From: Thermococcus henrietii
GTDB lineage: Archaea; Methanobacteriota_B; Thermococci; Thermococcales; Thermococcaceae
Assembly (NCBI RefSeq): GCF_900198835.1
Contig: NZ_LT900021.1
Span: 1,984,001 to 2,048,000, forward strand
Reading direction: 5' to 3'
Length of the DNA: 64,000 bases
The notes under the pieces are model-generated. The model was given only the letters and a program-made list of their open reading frames with translations. It searched no databases and was not told where the DNA came from. The position numbers were made by a program, and so were the translations under genes. Shown in pieces: positions 49,657 through 63,779 of this stretch (positions within the stretch are counted from its first letter, which is position 1; each line of letters begins with the position of its first letter).

Positions 49657-50292
49657 TCACTGTAGCTGCACCACCGCGGTTGTGTAAGTGCTCGGAGTCG
49701 TGAAGTCGATAACACCCGGAGCTCCGAACTCTGGAACGACCTGTCCGGTGATGTGAGTCCTGACCGGTATCGCTCCAAAGAGGTCGCCAACGTCAACGGT
49801 AAGGACGACGATGTCACCGGCGTTCATGGTCGGGGAGTCCTTCTTAACGCTGTGGTCGTAGTCCTGTATGACGATGATACCAAAGTTGGTCTTGTAAGTA
49901 ACGTTCGGCCAAGCGGTGGAGCCGAAGATGTTGTTTGAGGTGTTGTCATAGAACTTCGAGTTGTACTTGAGAACCGCCTGAGCGGTACCGTTGCTGAGGA
50001 TTATCTTGGTGTTGTTGAGGTCGATTCCGGCGCTGCCCGCGTTCGGAGTAACGTAGATAGCGAGCTTGGTCAGTCCGTTGTCCGCCGCGTTGTAGTAACC
50101 AACCACCTGCATGACCTGTATTCCGCTGGCGACCTGCTCAGTGCTCTCCCTGCCAGTGCTGGAAGCCTTCTGCTGCAGATAACCACTCGTGTTGATAAGC
50201 ACTGCCGCGGCAACTGCCGCCACTAGAACCATTGCTATGAACACAATCAGGGTACCGATACCCACGGCACCTCTTCTGGTCCTGGCCTTCAT
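49657..50292 (-). CDS. flaB1: Archaellin (flagellin), first copy
   Basis: This 211-residue archaellin is the promoter-proximal gene of the operon. [29 protein letters not shown] contains the basic class III leader and processing site. The variable centre (about 75-150) contains several Asn-x-Ser/Thr sequons that could be glycosylated. The promoter with three ordered repeats lies 49-110 bases upstream. As first gene it is likely the major filament subunit. Confidence 0.94.
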
Positions 50293-50340: not shown

Positions 50341-50401
50341 AAATATAAAGCCCTTTTTTGTTCTTAGTAGTGTAGGTGATTGTGTAGGTGCATATGTAGG
50401 T
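50341..50401 (-). promoter_or_regulatory. Archaellum operon promoter with three 12-bp-spaced ACCTACA boxes
   Basis: Reading the minus strand, ACCTACA occurs at 50401-50395, 50389-50383 and 50377-50371, exactly 12 bp apart. A TATA box (CTTTATATTTTT, 50350-50341) lies 21 bp downstream of the proximal box. The distal box forms TACCTACATA, including TACATA, the sequence reported for the methanogen archaellum activator EarA. This looks like an activator site on one helix face slightly over one turn apart. Confidence 0.7.
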
Positions 50402-50438
50402 ACTAAAAAAAGAACCCAACGACAGCGGCTGGGGGGAG

Positions 50439-51392
50439 TTATAGTTTTTCAAGAACGAGGAGGCTCTTACCGGGCCGCTCAACGCGCACGGTGAAGCCCA
50501 ACTTTTCAACGGCCTTTAAAATCTCCTGAGTCATTGGAAAGCCCACGAAATCCCTGTTGAGGGCCTCAAAGAACTCAAGGGCCGAAACGTTCTCAAAGGC
50601 GTCCCTAAAGGGTTCCACTATCACCAGCTTACCCCCATCTTTCAAGGTTTCCAAAGCGTTCTTGAGGACTTTAGCCCTGTCCGGGATGTACTCGAGAACA
50701 AAGCTCATCAGAACGGCGTCGTACTCGTTGACGGGCCGTATAAGCCGAGCGTCGAGCTCTTTAAGGGAAATGGGGAGGTTTTTTTCCTCGGCCCTGGAGC
50801 GGGCTATCTCAAGGAGCGCCGGTGAGTAGTCGAGGCCGAGGTAGAGACCATCGTAGCCCACAATCCTGCCGAAGAACTCCGGTGAGACTGAACCACATCC
50901 TATATCGAGAACCGCCGAACCAGGCTTTAGGCCGGCAACGTCGGCCATGACCTCTCGGTAGGCCCTCGCGAAGGAGGTGCTCATCCTCATGTCCCAGAAG
51001 TCGGCGTCCTTGTCAAAGTCCATGAGGATGTGTGGATGGGTGGGAGTTATGAAGGCGTAGTCAACCATTCGATAAATCTCCTCGTGAATGGAAACCCAGT
51101 CCGGGAGAAGGAGGTCATACTTATCTGGAGGAATCTCGAGGGTATATGAAAAACCGTTGAGGTGGAGCCTCCCGGCGCGAACCTCGATGATTCGGAGGTC
51201 CTGCAACGTAGAGATGAACCTCACGAGCAGGGCCCTGTTTGGAAGACCTACTCCCTCAAGGAGCTCTTGGAGGGTGGGCTCCTTCGCAAGGAGGGAAAAT
51301 ATACCGTGTTTCGTACCGAGGGAAACAATCTGGAGTATGGCAATCCTGACCATGTGGTCTATGTTGGTGTCAACGACCCTTGGGGAGGTCAT
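50439..51392 (-). CDS. SAM-dependent methyltransferase with N-terminal winged-helix-like domain
   Basis: This 317-residue protein has an N-terminal helical region (DHMVRIAILQIVSLGTKHGIFSLLAKEPTLQELLEGVGLP) resembling the dimerisation domain of O-methyltransferases, and a SAM domain with VLDIGCGSVSPEFFGRI, YLGLDYSPALLEIARSRA, and LMSFVLEYIPDRAKVLKNALETLKDGGKLVIVEPF. It follows earA by nine bases, so both form one transcript directly upstream of the flagellin operon. A role in modifying archaellum parts or a regulator is inferred. Confidence 0.78.
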   Translation of the reverse strand: MTSPRVVDTNIDHMVRIAILQIVSLGTKHGIFSLLAKEPTLQELLEGVGLPNRALLVRFISTLQDLRIIEVRAGRLHLNGFSYTLEIPPDKYDLLLPDWVSIHEEIYRMVDYAFITPTHPHILMDFDKDADFWDMRMSTSFARAYREVMADVAGLKPGSAVLDIGCGSVSPEFFGRIVGYDGLYLGLDYSPALLEIARSRAEEKNLPISLKELDARLIRPVNEYDAVLMSFVLEYIPDRAKVLKNALETLKDGGKLVIVEPFRDAFENVSALEFFEALNRDFVGFPMTQEILKAVEKLGFTVRVERPGKSLLVLEKL

Positions 51393-51401
51393 CTCCCCAC
51401 C

Positions 51402-51731
51402 TCACAGGAACCGCCTGTAGTAGCGGTAGTATTCCTTCAGGTAATCCACGACCTTCTTGCCGTATTCTGTAAGGCGGTAGTACTTGAAGCCGTTGCTCGC
51501 TATCTCCTCAACGAGACCGAGGTAAACCAGGGAGCTCTCACCGTTGTAGCGGTTACCAAGACCAACAAGAGCCCCCCTCACGTTCGACGGGTCAGAGCCA
51601 ACGACCCTTGCAATCTCCGACAGGTACGTTGCGGACGGATATATCTCGTTCAGGTACATCAGTATCTTCTTCCTGAGCTCACTGCGGTGCAATGACCTGA
51701 GCACCTGCGGGTCTATCACCACCGAGTTCAT
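51402..51731 (-). CDS. earA: EarA-like archaellum transcriptional regulator
   Basis: This 109-residue winged-helix protein reads LRSLHRSELRKKILMYLNEIYPSATYLSEIARVVGSDPSNVRGALVGLGNRYNGESSLVYLGLVEEI, which closely resembles the euryarchaeal archaellum activator EarA described in Methanococcus. The recognition helix is about SDPSNVRGALVGL. It stands immediately upstream of the archaellum operon. The ATG follows GGTGGTGGAGG. Identity as EarA rests on remembered family resemblance plus gene context. Confidence 0.82.
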   Translation of the reverse strand: MNSVVIDPQVLRSLHRSELRKKILMYLNEIYPSATYLSEIARVVGSDPSNVRGALVGLGNRYNGESSLVYLGLVEEIASNGFKYYRLTEYGKKVVDYLKEYYRYYRRFL

Positions 51732-51774
51732 TCCTCCACCACCCCGGGTTTTTCTGAGCCTGATTGTAGCCCGC

Positions 51775-51802
51775 TGAAGTTTATGTAGCTAAGCGTGCAG
51801 GT
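51775..51802 (-). promoter_or_regulatory. earA promoter with two 12-bp-spaced boxes
   Basis: On the minus strand ACCTGCA (51802-51796) and AGCTACA (51790-51784) are exactly 12 bp apart and in the same orientation as the boxes of the flagellin operon. The second merges into ATAAACTT (51782-51775), a plausible TATA element about 45 bases before the ATG. The close overlap suggests feedback control of earA by its own product. Confidence 0.55.
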
Positions 51803-52027
51803 GCACCGTATTATTGTTAGCGCTTGGAAGATATATAACGTTTTCGCATGGAGAATGTCCCTTAACCAATACAAAACCCACTGAATTGAAAAATCATCAC
51901 AACATTTCGATGATGGTGGAATATTGGGCCCTTCACCCATCATCTTGGAAAAAATCTAAAGAGGGTTCAAAAAAGGTTTAAAACATCGTTGCCCATATTA
52001 GTTCCACGGGCTCCGCGGGTGGTAATC

Positions 52028-53074
52028 ATGTGGGAAGCGATTGCAGTAACGGCAGTGGTTGCAGTGGCGCTCGTTCTCTACGTTAGGGACGTCACGAACA
52101 AGGTTCTCGTGAGGTACTTCGAACTCAAGGACAACCTCATGGAGCTCGAAGAGAACTTCACCGGCTTCCGTTCTGCCATTGAAAAGAGAATTTCAGAACT
52201 GAGGAGCTCCGAGAGAGGTCCAACCCAGCTTCCGGAGCTGAAGGAGATTAGGGAAAAGATAACCTCGCTCGAGAAATCCCTGAGGGAGTTCAAGAAGTTC
52301 GAGACGAAGTTCGACTTCGAGATTGGGAGCGTTAAGAACGGTCTTGAGAGGCTCGAGAGCAGGGTTGACCGGCTCGAAAAGGAAGTTGAGGAGAGCAGGG
52401 AGCTTATAAAGGAGGAGCTCAGGGAGGAAATCATCAGGGAGCTTGAGGAGGAGATAGAGCACCTCGAAGAGGTCATCGAGAGGCGGAAGAACGAGGAAGT
52501 TGAGGAGTTCCTTGAGGTCATCAAGGCCGCGATAACACTACAACCAGAGAAGCTCCGCGAGGGCCTTCTTGAAGCCAAGCGCGCACTCCTCTCGCTCAGG
52601 GACATCGCGAAGGTCTACGTCCTGACCGGAAAGGGGCAGAAGGAGTTTAGGGAGCTCAAGGAGAACCTCGTAGAACTCCTCAAGAACCTGAGGAAGCTGG
52701 CAATCGTCTCCGTCCCGGACGAGAACGTTTACTCCAAGTTCAACGAGGTCATAGTCAAAACCAAGAGGCTCGAACTGCCAATGAAACGCGGGGATAAAGA
52801 ACTCTCGCCCGAGAAGAGCTTCATTGAGATACACAGGATAACCTACGAGCTGGCCGGGGAGATTGACAGGATTGCCGAGATGCTCGGAGAGCCCGTCCCC
52901 GTGACGCCCGTGGAGAAGGAGTTCTATGAGAAGCTGCGCTACCAGTTCGAGGAGCTGAGACGGCTGGAGGAGCAGGTGCAAAAGTTAATGCTCAAGCTCG
53001 GAGCCGTTAATAAGGAGCCCGAAGAGAAGAAAGACGACATAGAGGAAATTCTAAAGGACCTCAACCTCCTCTAA
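52028..53074 (+). CDS. Membrane-anchored coiled-coil protein, unknown function
   Basis: This 348-residue protein has one N-terminal membrane helix (AIAVTAVVAVALVLYVRDV), then a long coiled coil (residues about 20-160, rich in E, K, R and L), and a helical C-terminal domain (VIKAAITLQPEKLREGLLEAKRALLSLRDI and onward) ending in an acidic tail. The ATG at 52028 follows GGTGGTAATC. It lies between the archaellum and chemotaxis blocks; a link to motor or receptor arrays is possible but only inferred from place. Its 3' end overlaps cheW by four bases. Confidence 0.7.
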   Translation: MWEAIAVTAVVAVALVLYVRDVTNKVLVRYFELKDNLMELEENFTGFRSAIEKRISELRSSERGPTQLPELKEIREKITSLEKSLREFKKFETKFDFEIGSVKNGLERLESRVDRLEKEVEESRELIKEELREEIIRELEEEIEHLEEVIERRKNEEVEEFLEVIKAAITLQPEKLREGLLEAKRALLSLRDIAKVYVLTGKGQKEFRELKENLVELLKNLRKLAIVSVPDENVYSKFNEVIVKTKRLELPMKRGDKELSPEKSFIEIHRITYELAGEIDRIAEMLGEPVPVTPVEKEFYEKLRYQFEELRRLEEQVQKLMLKLGAVNKEPEEKKDDIEEILKDLNLL

Positions 53075-53511
53075 AACTCGTCGCCGAGGAGCTTGTCGAG
53101 GTCAATCATTATGAGAAGCCTTTCGCCGTCGTTTATCTTGGCGATGCCCTTTATGTAGCGTATGTCCACCCTGCTGGCGAGGGTCTTCGGAGGCTGTTCT
53201 ATCTGGTCCTCGGTGAGGGTTATGACATCCGAGACGGCGTCAACGATTATGCCGACAACCTCGTCCTTGACCTCGGCGATGATAATCTTCTTCTTGGAGA
53301 GGTCCTCGTCCGGGTCGTAGTAGCCGAGGAGCTTCTTGAGGTTGACGACGGTGGTAATCTGACCGCGCAGGTTTATGACGCCCTCAACGAAGTCCGGCGC
53401 GTTGGGAACGCGTGTTATGGGCATCATCTCCTTGATTTCCCTGACCTTGGAGATGTCAAGGCAGAACTCCTCGTTGCCGACCATGAAAGCCACAACCTGA
53501 ATCTCCCCCAA
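53071..53511 (-). CDS. cheW: Chemotaxis adaptor CheW
   Basis: This protein of about 146 residues couples receptors to the CheA kinase. It has the CheW fold signatures VVAFMVGNEEFCLDISKVREIKEM, VPNAPDFVEGVINLRGQITTVVNLKKLLG and KIIIAEVKDEVVGIIVDAVSDVITL. The TTG start at 53511 follows GGGGTGATACT; the frame is open further upstream but overlaps the receptor gene. It is transcribed with the upstream soluble-receptor-like MCP. Confidence 0.92.
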   Translation of the reverse strand: MGEIQVVAFMVGNEEFCLDISKVREIKEMMPITRVPNAPDFVEGVINLRGQITTVVNLKKLLGYYDPDEDLSKKKIIIAEVKDEVVGIIVDAVSDVITLTEDQIEQPPKTLASRVDIRYIKGIAKINDGERLLIMIDLDKLLGDEF

Positions 53512-53515
53512 AGTA

Positions 53516-54724
53516 TCACCCCCCAACCCTTTCAAGGAGTTCACGTGAACGCGAAACCGATTCGGCAAGCTCCTTAAGACCCTTTCTAATCTCCTCCAGC
53601 CTCGTCTGCACGTCGGAGATGAAGGCCGTGAAGTTATCAACCTCGGCGGAGAGGTCCTCCTGAACCTTGTAAACGCTGTCCAAAGTGTCCATCAGCATTT
53701 GAACAGACTGGGCCTGACCCTCAATGCTGTCGGAGAGCTCCTTTATCATGTTGGCCGTCTCGTTGGCGCGTCTCGCTATATCGTCGAAGGCCGCAATGAG
53801 CTCTTGAACGGCGTCCTTTATCTCCTCAGTGACCGTGAACTCTTTCTTTATTGAGCCGACGACCTTGTCAATGCTCTCCTGCATGTTCCTAATCAGCTCT
53901 GCAATCTGGTCGGTTGACTTCTTGGACTGGTCGGCCAGCTCGCGGATGTTCTCAGCCACCACCGCGAAGCCCCTTCCGTGCTCTCCGCTCCTCGCGGCCT
54001 CTATTGCGGCGTTGAGAGCCAAAAGGTTCGTCTGCTCCGCGATGTTGCCGATGACCTCGACGATTTCGCCAATTCTGCGTGAGTGCTCGACGAGTAGCGA
54101 CAGGGCCTTCTCCATATCCTGGTTGACCTCGTTGATGCTCGCGACGTTCAAAGCCACGTTGTCGGAAATCTGCTTGCCCTTCTCAGCCATGTTAGCCGTT
54201 TCGAGGGCGTAATCGGTCAGCGCCTGAGCTTGGGTGTTCATTTCCTCTATGCCCGCCGTAAGTGTCTGGATGTAGTCCCCGAGCTCTGCCACGCGGGAGC
54301 GCTCCTCTTGGATGAGCGTGAGCAGACCGTTGGAGTCAAGGGAAACCCCAAAGTCCGCGCTCTCCAGAAGCGACGTTGCCTTCTCGTCGGCGTTCTTGAG
54401 CTCTTCAAGGACATCACGAACTTCCTTCGGAACGCCTACCCTCTCAATCCTGACCTCCCTCTTTGACTTGGCTTTCTCAGCTATGCGGAGAAGACGGGAA
54501 GCGGTTTCCGAATCAAAGCCCTCAAGGGGGACGTGCTCTCCATCGATGAGCCTCTCAAGAACGTCGAGGAGGTCTTCCCTTCTGGGACTGGAAGAGAGGT
54601 AGAGTCCAACGACCAGAGCAGTGCCGATGCCCGCTATTGCACCCACCGCTAGAGAAACCGCAGAACCCGCGAGCGTGACCACTGGAACCGATAGCACCGA
54701 GGCGAGAGTTACTGACCTGCCCAT
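53516..54724 (-). CDS. Methyl-accepting chemotaxis protein without a sensory domain
   Basis: This 402-residue protein has one or two hydrophobic segments at the N-terminus (residues about 7-43), no recognisable extracellular ligand-binding domain, and then a full MCP signalling part: helical bundle with hairpin tip [46 protein letters not shown]. Signals must come from the membrane or the cytoplasm. It is translated just upstream of cheW, which it may recruit. Expression is from a promoter divergent to cheR. Confidence 0.88.
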
Positions 54725-54760
54725 GGGCGCACCCCCTGACTGGTACTTATTGTCACTTCA

Positions 54761-54787
54761 GGGATAAAAGACTTTCGTATGTATGTA
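54761..54787 (-). promoter_or_regulatory. MCP-cheW promoter with overlapping TACATA elements
   Basis: On the minus strand TACATACATA (54787-54778) lies six bases upstream of the TATA box CTTTTATCCC (54770-54761). Two overlapping copies of TACATA, the site reported for EarA in Methanococcus, suggest the same regulator as for the archaellum genes. The 12-bp box array of the cheR promoter is about 50 bp away on the other side. Confidence 0.45.
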
Positions 54788-54833
54788 ATAACCAAAGCTA
54801 CGAGTCACCATAATAACCCTTGGATTCGTAACG

Positions 54834-54898
54834 ACCTGCGTATGCACCTACACAACCATCTACACTAAAGGCTTTTTACGAGAAAAAGCCCATAAACT
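54834..54898 (+). promoter_or_regulatory. cheR operon promoter with three 12-bp-spaced boxes and a hairpin
   Basis: ACCTGCG (54834-54840), ACCTACA (54846-54852) and ATCTACA (54858-54864) are exactly 12 bp apart and in the direction of transcription, as upstream of the flagellins. A perfect inverted repeat GGCTTTTT-ACGAG-AAAAAGCC follows at 54870-54890. A TATA candidate CATAAACTT sits at 54891-54899, about 26 bp after the last box. Confidence 0.65.
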
Positions 54899-54969: not shown

Positions 54970-55833
54970 ATGATGGACTACAAGGACCCCGGCTACCTGA
55001 AGATTAAGGAGGAGCTCTTTCGGCACCTCAAGGTTAGCAGTGACGCCTACAAGGATTCATACCTCATGCGAAGAATACGCGCGAGGATGAGAAAGCTGGG
55101 GATTACGAACTTCATGGAGTATTACCGCCTGATTAGGACCAACAAAAAGGAGCTAGACGAACTGCTCCTGACGGTGGCCATAAACGTGACCGAGTTCTTC
55201 CGGGACCCCGTCGTGTGGAAGACCTTCGAGAGAAAGGTCATACCCGAGCTCGTGAAGATAAAGAGGGAACAACACAGCTCCTCGCTCAAGATATGGAGCG
55301 CGGCCTGCTCCACGGGACAGGAGCCCTACTCAATAGCGATGACCCTCTACGAGGCCCTTGGAGAGAACCTCGGCGGCTTCAGGGTGCAGATACTCGCGAC
55401 CGACATAGACAGGGAAGCCCTTGCAGTCGCGATGCGCGGCGAATACCCGGTTGACGTCGTTGAGAAGCAGGTTCCGAGGCACATGATACCTAAGTACTTC
55501 ACGAGGGTCAGCGACGAGCGCTACCGCGTCTCACCGAAGGTGAAGAGGCTCGTTAAGTTCCAGCAGTTCAACCTCTTCAGCCCGAGGTATCCAACGGGTT
55601 TCGACGTCATATTCATCCGCAACGTGCTGATTTACATCAAGAGGGAGGCGCAGGAGGAGATATTTGCCAAGCTGTACGACTCCCTCGAAGACCACGGTTT
55701 CCTGATTCTGGGTAAAACCGAGACGATACTCGGAAACGCGGCAAAGCTGTTCAAATTGTACGACCTCGTCGCGAGGATTTATCGCAAGAACCTGGAGGTG
55801 AAGAAGCATGGCTCGGGTTTTGGTCGTAGATGA
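54970..55833 (+). CDS. cheR: Chemotaxis protein methyltransferase CheR
   Basis: This protein of about 287 residues methylates receptor glutamates using SAM. It has the N-terminal CheR helical domain (MRRIRARMRKLGITNFMEYYRLI) and the catalytic domain with SLKIWSAACSTGQEPYSIAM, LATDIDREALAVAMRGEYP and FDVIFIRNVLIYI. The ATG at 54970 is preferred to the GTG at 54961. It heads the rightward operon cheR-cheY-cheB-cheA-cheC-cheC-cheD-MCP. Confidence 0.95.
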   Translation: MMDYKDPGYLKIKEELFRHLKVSSDAYKDSYLMRRIRARMRKLGITNFMEYYRLIRTNKKELDELLLTVAINVTEFFRDPVVWKTFERKVIPELVKIKREQHSSSLKIWSAACSTGQEPYSIAMTLYEALGENLGGFRVQILATDIDREALAVAMRGEYPVDVVEKQVPRHMIPKYFTRVSDERYRVSPKVKRLVKFQQFNLFSPRYPTGFDVIFIRNVLIYIKREAQEEIFAKLYDSLEDHGFLILGKTETILGNAAKLFKLYDLVARIYRKNLEVKKHGSGFGRR

Positions 55834-61535: not shown

Positions 61536-63779
61536 ATGAACTTCAGGACGAAAATTGTTGGTATCGTTGTCGTTTCGCTGTTCCTCGTGGCAGTGATAGC
61601 CAGCGCCATGATGCTGTACACGGGAAACCACACAAGCGACATAATCCAGCAGAAGCTAGCACCAGAGGTGGACTACCAGGCCAAGGAAATGACTATGGCG
61701 CAGGCAAACGCACTCGCGGAACAGTTCAGCGGGTTCTTCAGGGAGGTCGAAGCCCTCGGACGGGCCACGCAACAGCTCACCATAATATCGCTGAACGACC
61801 TGAACAAGACTGGGACGCCATTTGGAAGTCCCGGCTACGCTGAAAAGCTGAAGCCCCTGCTCCTCGAACGCTTTTCAACGATAGCCAAAGCGGAGCCAAA
61901 GCTCAGCGCGGTGTACTTCGGCGACGTGAACGGCAACATGTACATTTATCCTGAGCAGAAGCTTCCGGCCGGTTACGACCCGAGGAAGAGGCCGTGGTAC
62001 CAGGAGGCAGTCCAGAAGAACGGACCGGTCTGGAGCCAGCCCTATCGCGACGCCTCAACCGGAAAGTGGGTCGTGACTTACGCCGTTCCAGTCTATTACA
62101 ACGGTAAACTCGTTGGTGTCATTGGTCTGGATGTGTTCATAGACACGCTCGCAAAGGCCGTTACAAGCGTTAAGATAGGAAAAACGGGCTACGCGTACGT
62201 CGTCGGTCCAAACGGCCTGATATACATCCACCCCGACCCCCAGATTGAGATGAAGCTCAATGTCTTCAAAGAGCCCAGCCTCAAACCCGTCGCCGAGATA
62301 ATCAAGAGCGGAGAACCAAACGCCACGACGATATACACATGGGAAGGGGTGCGCGCCGTCGCCGCGGGTGTTAAGATTCCCGAAACGGGATGGTACGTCT
62401 TCGCCAAGGTCCCAGTCAGCGAGATAAGTGCGGGCATAATAAAGGCGGTGGACGACACGAGGAAGACAACCCAGAGGGCGGCACTGTACATGACGCTCAT
62501 AATCCTCGCGATATCCGCCGTTCTCGTTGGCGCCGCATACAAGATTACCCAGAGCTCGATAAAGCCCCTGGAGGAGCTCAAGCGCGTGGCGCAGGCTTTG
62601 GCTGAGGGCCGGCTGAGTGAGGTGAATAGGGAGCTTAAGAGGATTCGGTACTTGGAGGACGATGAGATTGGTGCGCTCATCAAGGCCTTCGAGGCCGTAG
62701 GAAAGGACCTCGTTGGAACCTTAAACACGATAGCGACAAAACTCGAACGCCTCGCCGAGGGTGATTTAAGCAACGGCCTCAGCATGGAGGCCAAGGGTGA
62801 ACTCAAAGAAATCCTCGAAGACCTCAAAGACACCAACGAGAAACTCAAGGGACTAATCGGCGAAATAGTCAACGTTACCGACGAACTTGAAAAGAAGGCG
62901 AACACCCTCGCCCAGATTTCAAAGGATGTTACAGAGGCGATTAACCAGGTCAACGAGGCCGTTCAGCAGGTCAGCATTGAAGCGCAGAGACAGCAGGAGC
63001 ACATCAACGAAATAACCGAGGGAATGCGCTTCGTTGCAGAAACCAGCGCCGAAAGCGTCAGGGCAATGGAGGAGTTCGAAGGAGCCGTTGGAGAGGTAGT
63101 GAACATCGCCAACGAAGGCAGGGAGAAGAGCGAGGTCTCGGCCCAGCAGATAGAGAGCATCCAGGAGACCATGAGCAAGATTGAGCACGCCGTTACAAAG
63201 GTCGCGGAGATGAGCAGGAGTATTGAGGAGATTACGGATGTGATTACGAATATTGCCGAGCAGACGAACCTCCTTGCCCTCAACGCGGCTATTGAGGCGG
63301 CTAGGGCTGGGGAAGCTGGTAGGGGTTTTGCCGTCGTTGCCCAGGAGATTAGGAAGCTTGCCGAGGAGAGCAAGCAGGCTGCAGACAACATCAAGAACAT
63401 AATCGACCAAATAACCACCGAAATCAGGGACGCAGTGGAGAGCACGGAGAAGGGCGTTGAAGTGGTTGGCGAGAGTGCCGAGACCCTCAGGGAGACGATA
63501 ACCTACCTCGGCAACATCGCCGACCTCCTCCAGGAGGCCAGTGGTCGGATGGGTGAGGTGAAGGAGCAGATTATCCGCACGCAGGAGGAGGTTGATAAGG
63601 CGTTGCGTGCTTTGGAGAATTTGGCTGCGAGTGCTGAAGAAACTACAGCCAGTGCTGAGGAGGTTAGTTCTGCCGTTGAAGAGCAGACTGCTGCCACTGA
63701 GGAGCTTGAGAGGGCCGCTAACGACTTGAAGAGAATCGTCGAACAACTCAGGGAAATCATCAGCAAATTCAAACTGTGA
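61536..63779 (+). CDS. Methyl-accepting chemotaxis protein with Cache sensor
   Basis: This 747-residue receptor has an N-terminal membrane helix ([21 protein letters not shown]), an extracellular Cache-type sensor (about 30-290, with [38 protein letters not shown]), a second helix ([19 protein letters not shown]), two HAMP-like segments and the MCP tip [47 protein letters not shown]. Cache domains bind small molecules such as amino acids. GGGGGTGATTCG precedes the ATG. It ends the che operon. Confidence 0.93.

Follow-up and report, generated by a model that had tools for sequence, protein, structure and literature searches.

In Thermococcus henrietii, the archaellum (arl) cluster, the chemotaxis (che) operon and earA lie within one 64,000-nucleotide stretch of DNA (hereafter the window; G000:C1:1984001-2048000, in a genome of 2,155,760 bp), and their promoters carry tandem boxes of the form ACCTACA at a 12-bp pitch. 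Our comparison indicates that these repeats belong to a real and conserved operator family spanning archaellum and chemotaxis genes, which very probably corresponds to the regulon of EarA, the regulator encoded beside them. Because the same array precedes arl, che, most genes for methyl-accepting chemotaxis proteins (MCPs), an ODP/MCP operon and a lone cheY, we consider it highly likely that the arrays are operators of EarA and that this protein is the master activator of a swimming and sensing regulon.

A search of the window for ACCTACA-N5-ACCTACA with up to two mismatches returned five pairs, all located at the arlB0, cheR and earA promoters. Shuffled versions of the window gave a mean of 0.14 tandem matches, and none of them gave five. 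The boxes were recovered at the coordinates first proposed for them, and the counts bear out the argument of the original prediction that a 12-bp pitch on three promoters is unlikely by chance. The array is clearest upstream of arlB0 (flaB1), the archaellin gene that opens the arl cluster (open reading frame 49657-50292, minus strand, with homologs in relatives). Here, as had been described, three perfect ACCTACA copies run along the direction of transcription at a pitch of exactly 12 bp, occupying 50395-50401 (box 1), 50383-50389 (box 2) and 50371-50377 (box 3) of the minus strand. The description of three exact copies is true only for arlB0, and exactness was overstated for the other promoters. 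The triple array of cheR (54970-55833, plus strand), the first gene of a che operon that extends to an MCP gene ending at 63779, does consist of three boxes at 12-bp pitch, but only the middle one, which is conserved, is an exact ACCTACA (54846-54852); it is flanked by a degenerate distal ACCTGCG (54834-54840) and a proximal ATCTACA (54858-54864). The latter abuts the B recognition element (BRE) CTAAAGGC and a TATA-like TTTTTAC (54865-54880), all on the plus strand. Divergent from cheR is an MCP gene identified by its profile match (53516-54724, minus strand), followed by cheW. The overlapping TACATA boxes proposed for its promoter are present as ACATACA/TACATA in the window's own clade but not in relatives, where the conserved element is one ACCTACA or ATCTACA box close to TATA; comparison with these relatives assigns the corresponding place in the window to a single ACATACA (54780-54786, minus strand), close upstream of TATA.

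The position of the arrays relative to the core promoter is as regular as their pitch. Alignment of 38 arlB0 promoters displays TACA-core boxes repeated upstream of the BRE and uncovers a degenerate fourth box, AAGAACA (50359-50365, minus strand), that keeps the exact 12-bp register next to the BRE and reads ACCAACA, with one mismatch, in a second clade. It adjoins a weak poly-A BRE, AAAAAGGGC, and the TATA element TTTATATT (50341-50358, minus strand); the BRE and TATA of the arlB0 promoter have been described (PMC10665913). Since the degenerate box fills the slot next to the BRE, the arlB0 array does not stand one pitch further from TATA. In forward-oriented MCP and AAA-ATPase promoters, a constant BRE of the CAAAAGCGC type comes after the last box, and TATA lies about 9 nt beyond the end of that box. 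The AAA-ATPase and many MCP promoters read ACCTACA, CAAAAGCGC and TATAAG, the arlB0 promoter AAGAACA, AAAAAGGGC and TTTATATT, and the distance is 9 nt in both. The same box, pitch and BRE register are therefore found at non-arl promoters, the exceptions being an MDEK-type MCP and earA. From these alignments we derive a predictive rule for a candidate operator, namely a 12-bp tandem repeat whose last box would lie against the BRE at a fixed distance to TATA.

Comparison of 94 Thermococcaceae genomes revealed that the arrangement is conserved across the family. The pattern ACCTACAYNNNNACCTACAC, with one mismatch allowed, gave 176 matches against eight for the reversed pattern, and the other non-coding matches in the T. 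henrietii genome lie mostly at chemoreceptor and motility promoters, so the arrays are not scattered at random. In the flanks of about 70 regions the target list recurs, joined by a further soluble MCP and, in several genomes, including some that lack cheR, by the promoter of a lone cheY. A scan of 22 genomes for exact boxes at any spacing between 7 and 27 bp placed 68 of the 79 pairs at pitch 12, a peak whose true height is slightly lower because some of these pairs lie in coding DNA. An 11-bp pattern, used as wrong-pitch control, gave 44 matches against 50 for its reversed form; a degenerate version of the 12-bp pattern proved too loose, its 150 matches being about equal to those of the reversed control. 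Orthologs of cheR are present in 33 of the 94 genomes. The expectation of conservation at orthologous promoters held, since a tandem box precedes cheR at every locus examined (30/30) and arlB0 keeps its array throughout; 29 of the 30 cheR upstream regions, Pyrococcus-type genera included, carry the array with at most two mismatches, a level that none of 600 shuffles attained. In genome G030 the arl cluster is separated from earA and che by lying on another contig, yet its array is complete, so linkage does not account for the shared boxes.

Many further loci of the T. henrietii genome carry arrays, which, like the fourth arlB0 box, the original prediction had missed. Genome-wide, ACCTACA-N5-ACCTACA with up to two mismatches occurs 29 times against 14 for the reversed pattern, about half of the 29 matches being inside genes. 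Non-coding arrays precede MCP genes at 14.8 kb, 828 kb and 1.53 Mb, a Vps4-like AAA-ATPase gene beside serS at 1.64 Mb and a DUF835 gene at 1.30 Mb. Another lies within a divergent DUF5658/145-aa gene pair at 1.62 Mb, and reversed arrays are located before an MCP gene at 1.44 Mb and, against TATA, at an ODP-MCP operon at 408 kb. Seven of the eight MCP genes above the PF00015 cut-off are linked to a box, through an array at their own or their operon's promoter or, for the window MCP, through a single box (enrichment of about 1e-10 by a rough hypergeometric estimate). The remaining MCP, of 488 aa, is situated in an operon at 371.9 kb.

The ODP locus (G000:C1:408369-409963) encodes a protein of the di-iron oxygen-sensor type and, after it, a soluble MCP of 250 aa, and is likely an oxygen-taxis operon. 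The Vps4/CdvC-like AAA-ATPase gene beside serS (G000:C1:1640593-1641740), whose tandem array is in perfect register, is probably TK1139 of Thermococcus kodakarensis. Of the 17 genomes with an ortholog (at least 59% identity, nearly full length), 16 also have cheR (Fisher 3e-8, without correction for kinship), a co-occurrence that favours a connection with chemotaxis. In those Pyrococcus-type genomes whose flank could be read in the correct direction, the sequence just upstream of the AAA-ATPase match showed no clear array. At G000:C1:1623112, a DUF5658 membrane protein gene diverges from a gene for a protein of about 145 aa (MLLTRHAEERL...) without a Pfam match, with conserved boxes between them that are also present in G009, G011, G012 and G029. 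Unlike at the other targets, the array of the MDEK-type MCP (G000:C1:1441019-1441130) and its orthologs lies at the 3′ end of the upstream gene.

As the original prediction held, EarA is encoded beside the arrays. The product of earA (51402-51731, minus strand) matches PF07381 with an E-value of 1.4e-33 and 115 bits (cut-off 22), its residues 10-98 aligning to positions 1-90, a match to the whole length of the profile. It is the sole EarA-family gene found in the genome, a search of which for a second PF07381 protein found none; a scan of the genome contigs with EarA yielded eight draft loci only. Its helix-turn-helix region is almost invariant across 24 sequences, as the box is. The order of elements in the predicted structure, helix-helix-helix-strand-strand-helix, would be compatible with a winged helix-turn-helix, but the mean predicted local distance difference test score is only 53, too low for a comparison of folds. 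Between earA and cheW lies a gene for a poorly conserved coiled-coil protein of 348 aa (52028-53074), which has no Pfam match.

These observations suggest a model in which the repeats are tandem operator half-sites for EarA as a winged-helix activator. Protomers would sit side by side on them in the same orientation and at the 12-bp pitch, presumably as a multimer. The promoter-proximal protomer, at a set spacing from TATA, would lie against the BRE and could help to load transcription factor B (TFB) on weak promoters through a putative contact with it. A last protomer touching TFB at the BRE fits the TFB recruitment that has been proposed for EarA (PMC5512572, PMC10665913). EarA would then switch on the archaellum, the che operon, most chemoreceptors, the ODP/MCP operon, the lone cheY and a few uncharacterised genes together. 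The one-regulator reading of the original prediction is thus supported by promoter comparison, and we infer that EarA is also the protein bound at the non-arl arrays.

Several observations weigh against this reading. EarA dependence is known for arl only, from binding to the Methanococcus fla promoter and, by inference, for arl in Thermococcales (PMC5512572, PMC10665913), and no EarA binding or knockout result outside arl was found in the literature searched. Boxes also occur in draft genomes where EarA was not detected: a boxed cheR promoter in G076, which is 96% complete and gave no EarA-family match, boxed MCP and AAA-ATPase promoters in G037, and the boxes of the DUF5658 pair in G029. No array was found upstream of the MCP at 371,870 (G000:C1:369500-374000 examined), and in the MDEK-type orthologous group the array is reversed and about 45 bp above the likely TATA. 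It is conceivable that the arlB0 arrays are recognised by one protein and those of cheR and the MCPs by another.

Among genomes at least 90% complete, those with both earA and cheR have a mean of 4.2 stringent arrays, those with earA alone 0.9 and those with neither 0.55, a comparison in which EarA presence is confounded with gene content. The low mean for earA alone is partly due to one clade whose second arl box, AGGTACA, escapes the pattern; matches in genomes lacking both genes (4/11) are partly in coding DNA.

The three drafts with boxes and no detected EarA, together with the different box orientation and position at the MDEK-type MCP and ODP promoters, would be accommodated if the che and MCP boxes were bound by another winged-helix regulator of EarA-like specificity, acting as a second protein or in a relay. 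We judge this unlikely, given that the core sequence, pitch and BRE register are the same as in the arl array, that the T. henrietii genome has yielded only one PF07381 protein and that the EarA-less genomes are drafts. Mere chance, or a role of the repeats as part of the core promoter only, would agree with the chance-level counts of the looser patterns genome-wide, but it is rendered negligible by the 176 stringent matches against eight controls, the pitch peak at 12, the functional enrichment and the conservation at cheR, and both explanations were rejected on the stringent-pattern, pitch and cheR counts. A further alternative arises from T. kodakarensis, where the genes that carry a 23-bp motif are raised by gyrase and lowered by histone mutations (PMC8643681, PMC8155482). 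As the authors who described it speculated, the motif might be a topology- or chromatin-sensitive element, responding to supercoiling or histone wrapping, rather than the site of a dedicated activator. Its high sequence specificity, its conserved register to the BRE and the fact that the arl boxes match what is known of EarA genetics (PMC5512572, PMC10665913) make this very improbable. The two readings are compatible, in that EarA could mediate an effect of topology.

Autoregulation of EarA is a separate matter. The proposal that EarA controls itself through boxes upstream of earA is supported in the window's own clade only, where the position of the boxes suggests repression, not activation. 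Two boxes at 12-bp pitch are indeed present, ACCTGCA (51796-51802) and AGCTACA (51784-51790) on the minus strand, but neither is an exact ACCTACA and both lie downstream of TATA instead of upstream of the core promoter. The latter, with BRE CGAAAAC and TATA GTTATATATC (51830-51847, minus strand), is conserved in most close relatives. The boxes begin 28 bp downstream of TATA (26 bp in one relative), which would place them at or past the predicted transcription start; in T. kodakarensis, transcription starts about 23 bp after TATA (PMC4247193). The leader boxes are limited to six related loci, and most other close relatives have BRE and TATA without the boxes. A general activation model, with boxes upstream of earA, was therefore rejected. 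Placed after TATA, the pair is a site for repression rather than activation, and in the window's clade EarA may exert negative feedback on its own gene. Many genomes also conserve an element resembling (A/T)(T/C)A(A/C)AATCAG in the 5′ leader of earA (51745-51783 in the window).

Genome G011, which we take to be T. kodakarensis KOD1, carries tandem boxes at the arl, RFRQK-type MCP, cheR, AAA-ATPase, ODP and DUF835 promoters. Their positions fit TK0156, TK0631, TK1139 and TK1605, and no site was identified in G011 for TK2147. In this species, Villain et al. (2021) described a 23-bp motif of consensus TTTGTGTABSTGBTTATGTAGGT, with a function called unclear, at fla, che, TK0156, TK2147, TK1139 and TK1605, that is, at the promoters of fla, che, two MCP genes, the AAA-ATPase gene (TK1139) and a sixth, which change together after gyrase expression (PMC8643681). 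The reverse complement of this motif, ACCTACATAAVCASVTACACAAA, is the tandem box. In histone mutants, Sanders (2021) observed a joint decrease of fla, che, TK0156, TK2147 and TK1139 (PMC8155482). These independent expression data speak for the proposed regulon. A search of the T. kodakarensis primary-transcriptome paper returned no passage on fla or che promoters. On the simple reading, the gyrase and histone changes act through EarA. A broader scheme is tentative and somewhat less than an even prospect: EarA would be the master activator of motility and sensing in Thermococcales, responses to supercoiling and histones would be readouts of its activity or amount, and the AAA-ATPase, DUF835 and DUF5658/145-aa proteins would be new archaellum or chemotaxis components.

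What was already known comprises the arl array and the T. kodakarensis motif. The recognition of this motif as an EarA-type box, the family-wide extension, the register rule with the fourth arl box and the further targets appear to be new. Two published observations that had stood unconnected, the EarA boxes of arl and an orphan 23-bp motif, are thereby joined; we found no paper linking them in the literature searched. Few archaeal transcription activators have a defined genome-wide regulon, and new candidate motility genes can now be named; T. kodakarensis is genetically tractable. FlhDC is a master regulator of bacterial flagella. It offers an analogy only, as does CsmR of Haloferax volcanii, in that one regulator governs motility genes (PMC13286277); both are presumably unrelated to EarA, with a different promoter type, and Haloferax is without EarA (PMC13286277). 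The Villain motif, with its likeness in reverse complement, was reported for six promoters of one species without mention of EarA (PMC8643681), whereas it is here tied to EarA boxes, across the family and at further targets. Closely comparable are the EarA sites of arl/fla. The arlB0 array had already been published as EarA's by Stockl et al. (2023), with a Thermococcales motif A(C/G)(C/G)TACA(T/C) (PMC10665913), and the arlB0 promoter analysed here has the same boxes, in repeats adjoining a weak poly-A BRE. Ding et al. (2017) described four EarA sites immediately upstream of the BRE in M. maripaludis (PMC5512572), equal in number to those of arlB0 once the degenerate proximal box is counted. 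Whether EarA also controls chemotaxis was left by the 2023 paper as a question to test (PMC10665913), to which sequence comparison now suggests an affirmative answer. Those studies cover arl only, whereas here the array extends to promoters of che, MCP, ODP, AAA-ATPase and other genes, its pitch being exactly 12 bp and its register to TATA shared.

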